Below are positions 7,305-59,042 of a stretch of DNA of 64,000 bases, in pieces (position 1 is the stretch's first letter; each line of letters starts with the position of its first letter). The notes beneath the pieces were generated by a model that saw nothing but the letters and a program-made list of their open reading frames with translations, did not search any database and was not told the DNA's origin. The stretch spans positions 773,301 through 837,300 of the forward strand of contig JAICWS010000001.1 of NCBI GenBank assembly GCA_025934695.1. Reading direction: 5' to 3'. The position numbers and the translations under genes are program-made. This stretch comes from Alphaproteobacteria bacterium (GTDB taxonomy: Bacteria; Pseudomonadota; Alphaproteobacteria; Micavibrionales; UBA2020).

Positions 7305-7327
7305 CAACCATCCTCACCCCCATGCAC

Positions 7328-7444
7328 CACCCCGGCGAAAGCCGGGGTCCAAGGACTTTGCACGTTCCGCCGCCGATAACAGGCTGCCGGTTGCTTGCGC
7401 GTTTTCTTCCAGGTCCGTGGACCCCGGCTTTCGCCGGGGTGGCA
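7328..7444. repeat. Palindromic repeat, family A, paired copy
   Basis: Two GC-rich hairpins built on CCCGGCGAAAGCCGGGG face each other across a spacer of about 75 bases; the outer copy ends GGCTTTCGCCGGGGTGGCAC. The same core recurs at 27205, 32011, 34701 and 50492. It fills the gap between two plus-strand genes. Confidence 0.85.
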
Positions 7445-7536
7445 CAGGGTGAGAGATGTGCCGAAATCCATACTATTTCACTTTGATATAAATCTTACTA
7501 TTTTCAGCAACTTGTCCTATTATTTATGTCAAATAT

Positions 7537-12359: not shown

Positions 12360-12380
12360 TTTCTTTTCCGTCTTCCTTAT

Positions 12381-12464
12381 CCGTCATTCCCGCGAAAGCG
12401 GGAATCTCATGCAGCCGGAGCCGCTTCTTGCTTCGCGAGATCCCCGCTTTCGCGGGGATGACGG
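12381..12464. repeat. Palindromic repeat, family A, paired copy
   Basis: GTCATTCCCGCGAAAGCGGGAAT and ATCCCCGCTTTCGCGGGGATGAC in opposite orientation about 35 bases apart. It sits between prfC and the DUF1491 gene, both on the minus strand. Confidence 0.85.
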
Positions 12465-12470
12465 CGCAAA

Positions 12471-22560: not shown

Positions 22561-22565
22561 ACGTT

Positions 22566-22682
22566 CCCTCTCCCGCGCCTATCGCGGGAGAGGGCTAGGG
22601 AGAGGGATTGTCCCGGCCTCGATGTTGAGTGCAGTACAATCCCTCTCCCCGACCCTCTCCCAACATGCGTTGGGAGAGGGAG
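22566..22682. repeat. Palindromic repeat, family B, composite
   Basis: The left hairpin CCCTCTCCCGCG...CGCGGGAGAGGG and right hairpin CCCTCTCCCAAC...GTTGGGAGAGGG surround AGGGAGAGGGATTGTCC and its mirror ACAATCCCTCTCCCC. This copy is close kin of the one inside prmC (33155-33269). Confidence 0.85.
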
Positions 22683-27204: not shown

Positions 27205-27323
27205 TAACCCCGGCGCAAGCCGGGGTCCACGATCCACTCGGCGTCAATCCCCGCGAAAGCAGGAACCCGTAGTTTGAGTGCGTTTCATCTTGCCCGAGAT
27301 TCCCGCTTTCGCGGGAGTGACGG
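27205..27323. repeat. Palindromic repeat, family A, multiple arms
   Basis: Three arms: AACCCCGGCGCAAGCCGGGGTCC, AATCCCCGCGAAAGCAGGAA and ATTCCCGCTTTCGCGGGAGTGACGG. The middle arm looks like a second insertion or a decayed copy. It lies between the small basic protein gene and the clpB stop. Confidence 0.8.
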
Positions 27324-27330
27324 CTAAGGT

Positions 27331-31927: not shown

Positions 31928-32010
31928 GGTCTGGTACTCCGGAGTTTGTGAAACTGGACGGAATACAGCATGGGAGGAATGGCAAGTCAATCGCCCCACT
32001 ATGAACGCAT

Positions 32011-32128
32011 GTCAGCCCGGCGAAGGCCGGGGTCCACGGACCTGAAAGAAGAATCCATGAGTAACGGGCAAACAGTTAAGAGCGGAGCGTGCAAAGTCCG
32101 TGGACCCCGGCTTTCGCAGGGGTGGCAC
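32011..32128. repeat. Palindromic repeat, family A, paired copy
   Basis: CAGCCCGGCGAAGGCCGGGGTCCACGGAC and GTCCGTGGACCCCGGCTTTCGCAGGGGTGGC (cores only) face each other across about 60 bases. The flanking GTCCACGGAC/GTCCGTGGAC extension is also present at 7328. Confidence 0.8.
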
Positions 32129-32149
32129 AGATAACTGAACTTCGTATTA

Positions 32150-32841: not shown

Positions 32842-33804
32842 TCAGGGTCTTCTTGCCGCGATCACCCGATCGCTCCCGGCTAAATCCGGTACCACTTGTA
32901 TCATAATCATGCCTGCCTGGGCAAGGATGGATTTAACCGCCTCCCCTTGGGTGTGGCCAATTTCAAACAGTGCCCAGCCCCCCGGTTTTAACCAGTTGTT
33001 CAGCCGGCTCGCGATGGACCGATAGCATTCCAGCCCCTCCGGCCCCGACACCAGTGCCGCGCGAGGATCGTACTGCGCGACCTCAGGCGACAGGTCTTCC
33101 ATCTCGCCTTGCGCAATATAGGGCGGGTTGGAGATGACAAGGTCGAACATGCAGCCCCCTCTCCGCTCGTCGCGGGAGAGGGTTGGGGAGAGGGATTGTC
33201 CTGAACCTGATGAAGCCGGACAATCCCTCTCCCCCCGCCCTCTCCCGGCATGCGCCGGGAGAGGGAGCCCGACCGCATAATTTTCCCAACCGGTCGCTAC
33301 AAATTGAGCCCGCTCCGCCAGATCCAGCGCCGCCGCGTTCTCCCGTGCCGTTGCTGTTGCTTCTTCTGATATATCAATCCCTACCCCTGTTGCGTTCGGG
33401 TATTCGATGAGAAGCGAAAGCAGCAGGCAGCCGGTGCCTGTGCCGAGGTCGAGGATGGCCGACGGCTCTGGCCTGACAAGCTTCAAGGCCATTTCAATCA
33501 GCGTTTCAGAATCCGGTCTCGGATCAAGTGTTTGCGGGGTGATTCTAAATTCCGACTTCCAGAATCCGCGATGGCCGATAATGCGCGACACCGGCTCGCG
33601 TTTCAGCCGGCGGTTGATAGCCGCATTCAAATCTTTTGCTTCCGCTTCACTGAGGATGTAATTCAAACTGGTCAATAATTTCGCCTGCGGCCAGCCCAGC
33701 ACATGCTGGACCAACAGCCGCACATCCAGGCCAGGGTTTTCGATACCGGCAGCAGCGAGCCGGTCCTGCGCGCCCGCAATGAAGTCTTTAAGTGAAGTAG
33801 CCAA
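32842..33804 (-). CDS. prmC: Release factor glutamine methyltransferase PrmC with an in-frame repeat insert
   Basis: 320 aa. It methylates the Gln of the GGQ motif in RF1 and RF2; RF1 is encoded just upstream. Motifs: N-terminal helical domain with EPVSRIIGHRGFWKSEF, SAM loop LDLGTGTGCLLLSL, and the catalytic SNPPYIA. Between FVATGWENYAVG and MFDLVISNPPY there is a segment of about 39 residues encoded by a family B palindrome (33155-33269), keeping the frame open. Without it the protein would be about 281 aa, the normal length. The insert falls just before the NPPY strand, probably in a surface loop. Start TTG at 33804 with AAAAGG upstream; no closer ATG. Confidence 0.9.
   Translation of the reverse strand: MATSLKDFIAGAQDRLAAAGIENPGLDVRLLVQHVLGWPQAKLLTSLNYILSEAEAKDLNAAINRRLKREPVSRIIGHRGFWKSEFRITPQTLDPRPDSETLIEMALKLVRPEPSAILDLGTGTGCLLLSLLIEYPNATGVGIDISEEATATARENAAALDLAERAQFVATGWENYAVGLPLPAHAGRGRGERDCPASSGSGQSLSPTLSRDERRGGCMFDLVISNPPYIAQGEMEDLSPEVAQYDPRAALVSGPEGLECYRSIASRLNNWLKPGGWALFEIGHTQGEAVKSILAQAGMIMIQVVPDLAGSDRVIAARRP
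33155..33269. repeat. Palindromic repeat, family B, inserted in frame in prmC
   Basis: The left hairpin CCCTCTCCGCTCGTCGCGGGAGAGGG and right hairpin CCCTCTCCCGGCATGCGCCGGGAGAGGG (described by their cores) flank GGAGAGGGATTGTCC and its mirror GGACAATCCCTCTCC. About 115 bases and nearly the same as the intergenic copy at 22566-22682, so the insert is recognisably the same mobile or spreading element. Confidence 0.9.
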
Positions 33805-34809: not shown

Positions 34810-35886
34810 TTACCAACTCATCTCCGCCAGCTTTTCGGCCTGGTCGTTGGAGATGAGGGGGTCGATGATTTCGTCGAGGCATTCACCGCTCATGACCCGG
34901 TCGATCTTGTAGAGCGTCAGGTTGATGCGGTGGTCGCTGACGCGTCCTTGCGGGAAGTTATAGGTGCGGATGCGCTCGGACCGGTCGCCGGAGCCGACCT
35001 GTTCCTTGCGGTTGGCGGAGCGCTCGTCGGCGAGCTTCTGCCGCTGCACTTCATAAAGGCGGGAGCGCAGGATCTTCATCGCGCGCGCCTTGTTCTTATG
35101 CTGCGATTTTTCGTCCTGCTGCACGACGACGGTGTTGGTCGGCAGGTGGGTGATGCGCACGGCGGATTCTGTCTTGTTGACGTGCTGGCCGCCCGCGCCG
35201 CCGGCGCGCATCACGTCGATGCGAAGGTCCGCGTCATTGATGACGATGTCGACTTCTTCGGCTTCCGGCAGCACGGCAACGGTGGCGGCTGACGTATGCA
35301 CCCGCCCCTGCGCCTCGGTCGCAGGCACACGCTGCACGCGGTGCACGCCGGATTCAAATTTCAGGCGCGCGAAGACGTCGCGGCCCGAAACCTCGATGAT
35401 GGCCTGCTTGATGCCGCCGAGATCGCTTTGGGAGAATTCCATGACCTCGAACTGCCAGCCCTTAATGGCGGCGTAGCGCTTGTACATATCGAACAGGTCC
35501 GCCGCGAACAGGGCCGCTTCGTCCCCGCCGGTGCCGGCGCGGATTTCGAGGATGGCGTTCCGGGCATCCGCCGCATCCCTGGGCAGCAGGGCGATGTGGA
35601 TTTTCTTTTCGAGGCCGGGCAGTTGTTCCTTGAGACGGTAATAATCTTCTTCCGCCATGGCCCGCATGTCCTTGTCGGCCTGCGGGTCTTTCATAATTTC
35701 TTCAAGGTCGGCGAATTCCTTCTGCGCGCCCTTGTACTCGCGGATGGTGGCGGCGAGCGGCGTCAGTTCGGCATATTCCTTCGACAGTTTCGTGAACTGG
35801 TCGGAGGGGAGCGTGCCCGAGGACATCAGCCCTTCGATTTCCTGGAAGCGGCCCAGCACTTGGCTCAGTTTCCGGTCGAGCGACAT
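34810..35886 (-). CDS. prfA: Peptide chain release factor 1
   Basis: 358 aa, normal. It reads UAA and UAG stop codons and triggers peptide release. The catalytic loop is [18 protein letters not shown], containing the GGQ that PrmC methylates, and a PAT-type codon-reading motif is visible in the [14 protein letters not shown] stretch. prmC lies downstream on the same strand, the usual arrangement, although small genes and a repeat separate them here. Confidence 0.97.
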
Positions 35887-58683: not shown

Positions 58684-58729
58684 GTCCCTTAGGCTATCCG
58701 TTTGCCGGATTTGAATTTCACTCTCGTTT

Positions 58730-58887
58730 CCTCTCCCCCGTTTGCGAAGCAAATGGCGGGAGAGGGCTAGGGTGAGGGGTGGTGCAGCTAAAAGAACGAA
58801 TGGTTTTTGCTGCACTGCCCCTCACCTTCCCGCTTCCGCGGACCCCTCCCTCTCCCGCCATGCGGCTGCGCCGCACGGGGAGAGGGA
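58730..58887. repeat. Palindromic repeat, family B, composite
   Basis: The left hairpin CCTCTCCCCCGTTTGCGAAGC...GGCGGGAGAGGG and right CCCTCTCCCGCCATG...GGGGAGAGGG surround GTGAGGGGTGGTGCAG and its mirror CTGCACTGCCCCTCAC. An open frame from 58779 reads through it into the pentapeptide gene, but that part is not coding. Confidence 0.8.
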
Positions 58888-59042
58888 TTAAAAGCGCCAA
58901 ATGCCTAGACTTAGGTGGTTGCAATCAAACGGAAATTTTCCTTAACCAAATCTCAAAGTTACTGATTTATCATGGACTTTGGGCGACTATGCCTGGTCCG
59001 CGGCCAGAACCGCTGCGGGCGAAAAGAAAAGGAAGGACCGCC

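Follow-up and report, generated by a model that had tools for sequence, protein, structure and literature searches.

The prmC gene described here raises the question of whether a dispersed palindromic repeat has become part of a conserved enzyme, and why this particular site admitted it. The gene lies in a stretch of 64,000 nucleotides (referred to as the window) from a 4.13-Mb alphaproteobacterial genome (G000). The features concerned are the following:

32842-33804, minus strand: prmC (peptide chain release factor N5-glutamine methyltransferase), 320 aa including a 38-codon insert, assigned by TIGR03534 and by fold match
33155-33268, minus strand: in-frame gain of 114 bp net, formed by a single palindromic element with its core at about 33155-33267, delimited by orthologue and element alignments
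33157-33182: terminal hairpin B of the element, about 3 nt short of the consensus (DNA fold; alignment)
33185-33234: long central hairpin of the element (DNA fold; consensus of 18 copies)
33238-33265: terminal hairpin A of the element (DNA fold; consensus of 18 copies)
34810-35886, minus strand: upstream neighbour of prmC, taken to be prfA (RF1)
22564-22682, plus strand: intergenic copy of the same element family (covariance model, 122.9 bits)
58727-58888, plus strand: diverged, weak match to the element model (covariance model, 34 bits)

The product was identified as PrmC by the PrmC/HemK profile TIGR03534, which it matched with 252.4 bits (curated cut-off 199.1); the second match to this profile in G000 (175.7 bits) falls under the cut-off. 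The frame stays open across the insert, giving a product of 320 aa with the NPPYI motif at residues 226-230, and the gene follows prfA in the usual prfA-prmC order. The window PrmC was aligned with 29 PrmC sequences from related genomes. Between WENYAV and FDLVISNPPY it has 41 residues, compared with two to four in 28 of the 29 orthologues, which lack the segment. An earlier annotation made from the letters alone (the sequence-only reading) had described about 39 extra residues at 33155-33269, with the frame kept and the motifs intact, and had proposed this comparison; the alignment confirms the extra segment as 38 codons at 33155-33268, and the open 320-aa frame, the profile score of 252 bits and the presence of NPPYI agree with the rest of that description. 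The remaining orthologue (L040) differs from these, with about 20 more residues of unrelated sequence in the same loop. This stretch (G091, 293-388) is His/Ala-rich and without a strong palindrome, and its genome belongs to the same order as that of the window.

When folded as DNA, the prmC insert forms three hairpins (terminal, long central, terminal) with a z of -8.8, and none of 200 shuffled sequences folded as well; the two hairpins reported earlier thus have to be replaced by three. Folded as RNA, the insert reached a z of -9.2. Eighteen copies, the prmC copy included, align end to end to a 114-bp consensus that has CCCTCTCCC/GGGAGAGGG repeats at its flanks, with a three-hairpin consensus common to all. 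In this alignment the element has terminal inverted repeats and no transposase of its own, as is characteristic of MITEs, and as a dispersed palindromic repeat of 100-150 bp it also has the build of a Rickettsia palindromic element. That it belongs to a dispersed family had been recognised correctly: blastn detected at least 78 matches in G000, both strands counted (40 of 83 candidates scored), and blastn together with a covariance-model search (150 of 1678 candidates scored) located at least 55 places, the weaker of which are diverged. These counts are lower bounds because just part of the candidates was scored in either search. The claim that the insert is almost the same as the copy at 22566-22682 was overstated, as the two share 78% identity over about 100 bp and 84% over a 43-bp core. 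In a search of relatives the element was matched in 20 of 94 genomes, the window's own included, with one strong copy in G001 and weaker ones in the others. In-frame insertion is easy for this family, since the length is divisible by three in 13 of 27 full-length copies and the orientation and frame used in prmC are open in 19 of the 27. Judged by eye, neither target-site duplications nor TA ends were seen in the flanks. The Y1 transposase profile (PF01797) found no match in G000 and matched 5 of 14 control genomes; a RAYT-driven REPIN was ruled out by the absence of this transposase family from G000. A known RNA family was ruled out as well, since no part of the window matched an Rfam family at its gathering threshold, and plasmid-borne copies were ruled out by the absence of any match in the plasmid collection.

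A structure prediction, also proposed in the sequence-only reading, was carried out with AlphaFold2, using an alignment with 80 named orthologues. The pLDDT was about 95-98 in the core and about 48-62 for residues 181-220, and the insert was modelled as an unstructured, low-confidence loop joining strands 166-170 and 220-225 in an otherwise intact PrmC fold. The PDB entry ranked best by Foldseek is 2b3t, E. coli PrmC together with RF1, with a TM of 0.93 normalised to target length, and the model has a class I methyltransferase fold like that of E. coli PrmC. NPPY comes after strand 220-225, and therefore the insert joins this strand at its other end; the fold topology suggests that it lies on the face of the sheet away from the active site. 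The course of events that best explains these results is that a non-autonomous palindromic element of about 114 bp, with three hairpins and terminal inverted repeats, entered the PrmC loop that connects the strand finishing near residue 170 with the pre-NPPY strand. As the net gain is divisible by three and no stop occurs in the frame that is read, the enzyme would have gained about 38 residues, which are predicted to be disordered, and this gain would have been tolerated. PrmC with the insert is presumably made and active, the insert is probably neutral or nearly so, and a mobilising enzyme should exist.

Across the class, insertion into the PrmC loop is rare. Among named alphaproteobacterial PrmC loci (the best 80 of 585), 78 have a loop of 7-14 aa; the other two (26 and 49 aa; L129 and L158) both come from Devosia genomes and look like other palindromic elements. 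In a sample of the class, PrmC was matched in 144 of 152 genomes and a palindromic loop insert was confirmed in G000 only; in a sample of the order, 146 of 150 genomes had a match and an insert was confirmed only in G094, the genome on which the sample is centred. Both surveys give lower bounds, with genomes without a match (8 of 152 and 4 of 150) and some genes of small excess left out. PrmC of G244 and G179 (class) and of G304 and G341 (order) is longer by profile span, but the pre-NPPY loops are short or without a palindromic peptide, and other fetched PrmC sequences with a smaller span excess are likewise not cases. The PrmC of G179 (L195) carries an acidic Asp/Gly/Asn-rich repeat stretch before the SAM motif, which is not palindromic by eye.

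Seventy-five Devosia genomes were then surveyed, and PrmC was readable at least partly in 72 of them (G442 and G451 gave no match, G446 a paralogue only). Loops of 23-110 residues were found in 24 of the 72 and loops of 7-15 residues in 47, the frameshifted G398 and the partial G448 being counted among the latter; one gene (G406) is cut by a contig end inside a long loop. Its halves (L227 and L233) are on separate contigs, a break that an inserted repeat would be expected to cause. Folding of the 24 long loops as DNA gave a mean z of -5.2, with 17 of the 24 below -3, compared with 0 of 93 control segments of equal length from the same genes. The other 7 fall short of -3, and G454 has neither a palindromic signal nor similarity to another insert. 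The Devosia loop inserts are mostly palindromic and belong to several different families: four of them received the names a, b, c and d on visual inspection of the peptides, before the tree was known, and several inserts are singletons. Families a and b are backed by blastn, d consists of two near-complete inserts and three that share 39-47 bp with them, and c is loose. As in G000, inserts were recovered as repeats of their own genomes. The L158 insert is a dispersed repeat of G095 with at least 12 further near-full-length copies of 72-86% identity (40 of 93 candidates scored), the insert of G408 is a high-copy repeat with 84 matches, both strands counted, and complete elements with identical ends occur in prmC and between genes. 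The prfA gene beside prmC was found at 18 of 19 Devosia loci and carries an insert in none of the 18. The sequence-only reading had considered that segments of matching length and unrelated sequence in an unrelated lineage would speak against an insertion. Such segments do occur in Devosia, but they are mostly other palindromic elements and close sisters are empty, and they widen the finding instead of refuting the insertion.

The location of the other copies was determined in G000, G095 and G408, and the special status of PrmC rests on the sampled copies from these three genomes. In G000, 48 of 54 other places lie between called genes, 6 overlap a gene end by 16-61 nt and none is inside a gene, so that the prmC copy is the only one of the 55 places judged to be inside a gene; the large share of intragenic copies that characterises Rickettsia palindromic elements was not found. 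A called gene lies within 160 bp on both sides of 37 of the 48 copies between genes, whereas around the remaining 11 an uncalled gene could still fit. Copies were called intergenic with a codon-usage gene caller, and spanning frames were judged by eye. In G000 this caller failed to find prmC itself (codon score -33, the insert contributing -20) and is therefore able to miss a gene carrying an insert. Long frames spanning other G000 copies were rejected on inspection as upstream extensions or antisense frames of GC-rich DNA. In G095, 28 of 28 other copies (from about 40 places, contig ends and some short ones being excluded) were called intergenic, and 24 of them are flanked on each side by a called gene no more than 160 bp away; an open frame that was not called also runs across 11 of the 28. 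In G408, 20 of 20 other copies (of the 84 matches) were intergenic by the caller, 18 of them having called genes at this distance or closer on either side. About two thirds of the 48 intergenic copies in G000 (for example L061, L070 and L064) have a called gene end no more than about 30 bp away, as if they were linked to transcript ends or terminators.

The number of insertion events in Devosia was approached with a PrmC tree of 69 rows from which the loop was left out. The fewest changes on this tree are 16 for presence or absence and 23 for kind, gains, losses and swaps pooled. G459, with a 47-residue loop, stands beside G458 with 9 residues, G429 stands beside the empty G427 and G461, and neighbours with distinct families were found in G450 (a) and G449 (c) and likewise in G407 and G408. 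A single-clade origin was rejected for family a (p 8e-6) and family d (p 9e-48) but not for b (p 0.079), and the rejection for d carries the reservation that it rests in part on three of five rows, because those share only part of the element. The inserts were also compared with the intergenic copies of G095 and G408. The G421 insert is 89% identical to an intergenic copy vs 80% to other PrmC inserts, and that of G465 88% vs 84%, as expected for a fresh insertion from the genomic pool; the inserts of G095, G450 and G409 are about equally similar to both, and that of G428 has its best match in another PrmC insert (82%; intergenic copy 80%). The last value, the unrejected single clade of family b and two b inserts that are 94% identical over 121 bp would all fit one ancient Devosia insertion, followed by divergence, by many losses or by transfer between species through recombination. 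Such a history is nonetheless quite improbable, given that close relatives differ in family (G450 and G449; G407 and G408), that G458 is empty beside G459, that one-clade trees were rejected for a and d, and that the inserts of G421 and G465 resemble intergenic copies clearly more closely than they do other PrmC inserts. Repeated insertion could be mimicked by gene conversion of this loop among Devosia species.

Taking these results together, it is very probable that an element was inserted in frame into the PrmC loop and tolerated, that the loop was entered again in Devosia, where several different palindromic families would have landed repeatedly, and that it is an unusually permissive coding landing site; this permissiveness follows from the repeated entry in Devosia combined with the tolerated insert of the window. 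Tolerance by the loop is the safest explanation of the pattern, and site preference or a benefit from the insert is possible. More tentatively, the pre-NPPY loop may be a coding hotspot of the Alphaproteobacteria, in which unrelated palindromic families integrate preferentially or are kept in independent lineages, and in which a disordered arm is repeatedly acquired or replaced. That the mobilising machinery itself favours the PrmC loop over the rest of the coding DNA, for its sequence or for a structure arising in it, is rather unlikely, even though several different families occupy one loop, the caller placed no other examined copy within a gene (0 of 54 in G000, 0 of 28 in G095, 0 of 20 in G408) and prfA next door, found at 18 of 19 Devosia loci, is free of inserts in all 18. 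By eye, no flanking motif is common to the prmC and intergenic copies and the insertion points vary by a few codons, and permissiveness combined with selection against other coding insertions could yield the same pattern. Retention for a function, either as a disordered arm tuning the binding of PrmC to the release factor or ribosome, or as an mRNA hairpin tuning prfA-prmC expression, is improbable: the long loops in 24 of 72 Devosia PrmC (and the one cut inside such a loop) and the strong hairpins in 17 of the 24 would agree with it, but the rapid turnover of sequence and family and the insert-free sister species are ill-suited to a conserved function. For the window itself an assembly artefact was considered, as repeats are common assembly traps and the Devosia assembly G406 breaks at the same place. 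We consider this extremely improbable, since the prmC copy is distinct from all other copies (next best 83-84%), both halves of the gene run on in frame and the genome is assembled in 7 contigs.

Palindromic elements inserted in frame are known from other bacteria; new is the repeated use of one enzyme loop. The opinion that coding insertions are well known only from Rickettsia was too narrow, as passages of several papers describe them also for Wolbachia, ERIC, the 107-bp Correia element and Coxiella QMITE (PMC3767692, PMC2229807, PMC5896051, PMC10969869). Rickettsia palindromic elements (RPE) are presented, in passages of a paper on R. japonica, as dispersed palindromic repeats of 100-150 bp that stand in frame in conserved genes, in solvent-exposed protein parts; different RPE groups occur near the same site in orthologues, RPE-4 sites are extended, and for RPE-4/6/7 one ancient insertion is preferred, with hotspots not excluded (PMC3767692). 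The window PrmC shares with RPE a dispersed palindromic repeat placed in frame in a conserved gene, which judged by frame and motifs is unbroken. RPE occupy many genes, whereas here a single gene loop is used repeatedly and the remaining copies, as far as examined, are intergenic; and whereas a single old insertion was preferred for RPE-4/6/7, the empty sister loops and rejected clades of Devosia point to repeated events. Wolbachia palindromic elements are described in the same passages as protein-coding, with biotin ligase as the named example (PMC3767692); by description, the likeness is that of protein-coding elements in alphaproteobacteria, in a different gene. ERIC and QMITE2 are reported in parts of three papers to be mostly intergenic and the 107-bp Correia element to be often intragenic as well, with in-frame gene fusions (PMC2229807, PMC5896051, PMC10969869), and target-site duplications and TA ends are given for several MITE-like elements in a passage of one of them (PMC2229807). 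The same source mentions an RPE-bearing guanylate kinase of Rickettsia that is active with altered affinity (PMC2229807). The elements of the PrmC type are similar to ERIC, 107-bp Correia and Coxiella QMITE as MITE-like repeats with in-frame gene fusions, and differ in that several of that group have target-site duplications and TA ends, neither of which was seen here by eye. RIME (Rhizobium intergenic mosaic elements, for which a citation is given in PMC2873474) and REP/BIME are palindromic intergenic repeats of Alphaproteobacteria and are not known to be coding; their likeness is by description, and no Y1 transposase was found in G000. In the open literature, titles and abstracts among the matches listed contained none on PrmC or Devosia in this role, subscription papers being mostly outside this scope, and passages of a comparative-genomics paper on Devosia use "palindromic" for CRISPR only and leave PrmC unmentioned (PMC6981132).

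For Rickettsia it has been asked whether coding palindromic sites are hotspots or relics of one old insertion. Devosia PrmC provides dozens of species in which one site is empty, filled or differently filled, in an enzyme with solved structures, and the frequency and order of insertions, their fitness cost and their biochemical effect are therefore directly measurable. The case would show that "intergenic" repeats are able to shape a conserved protein, and it makes the PrmC loop a natural test case for selfish DNA becoming protein.

The longest Devosia loop (L228 in G415; 110 residues, z -11.9) resembles a combination of at least two different palindromic elements, either adjacent or one within another. 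In the window, other palindromic repeat families of the GGCTTTCGCCGGGG and CCCGCTTTCGCGGG types form inverted pairs at 7320-7449, 12375-12465, 27281-27329 and 32010-32130.
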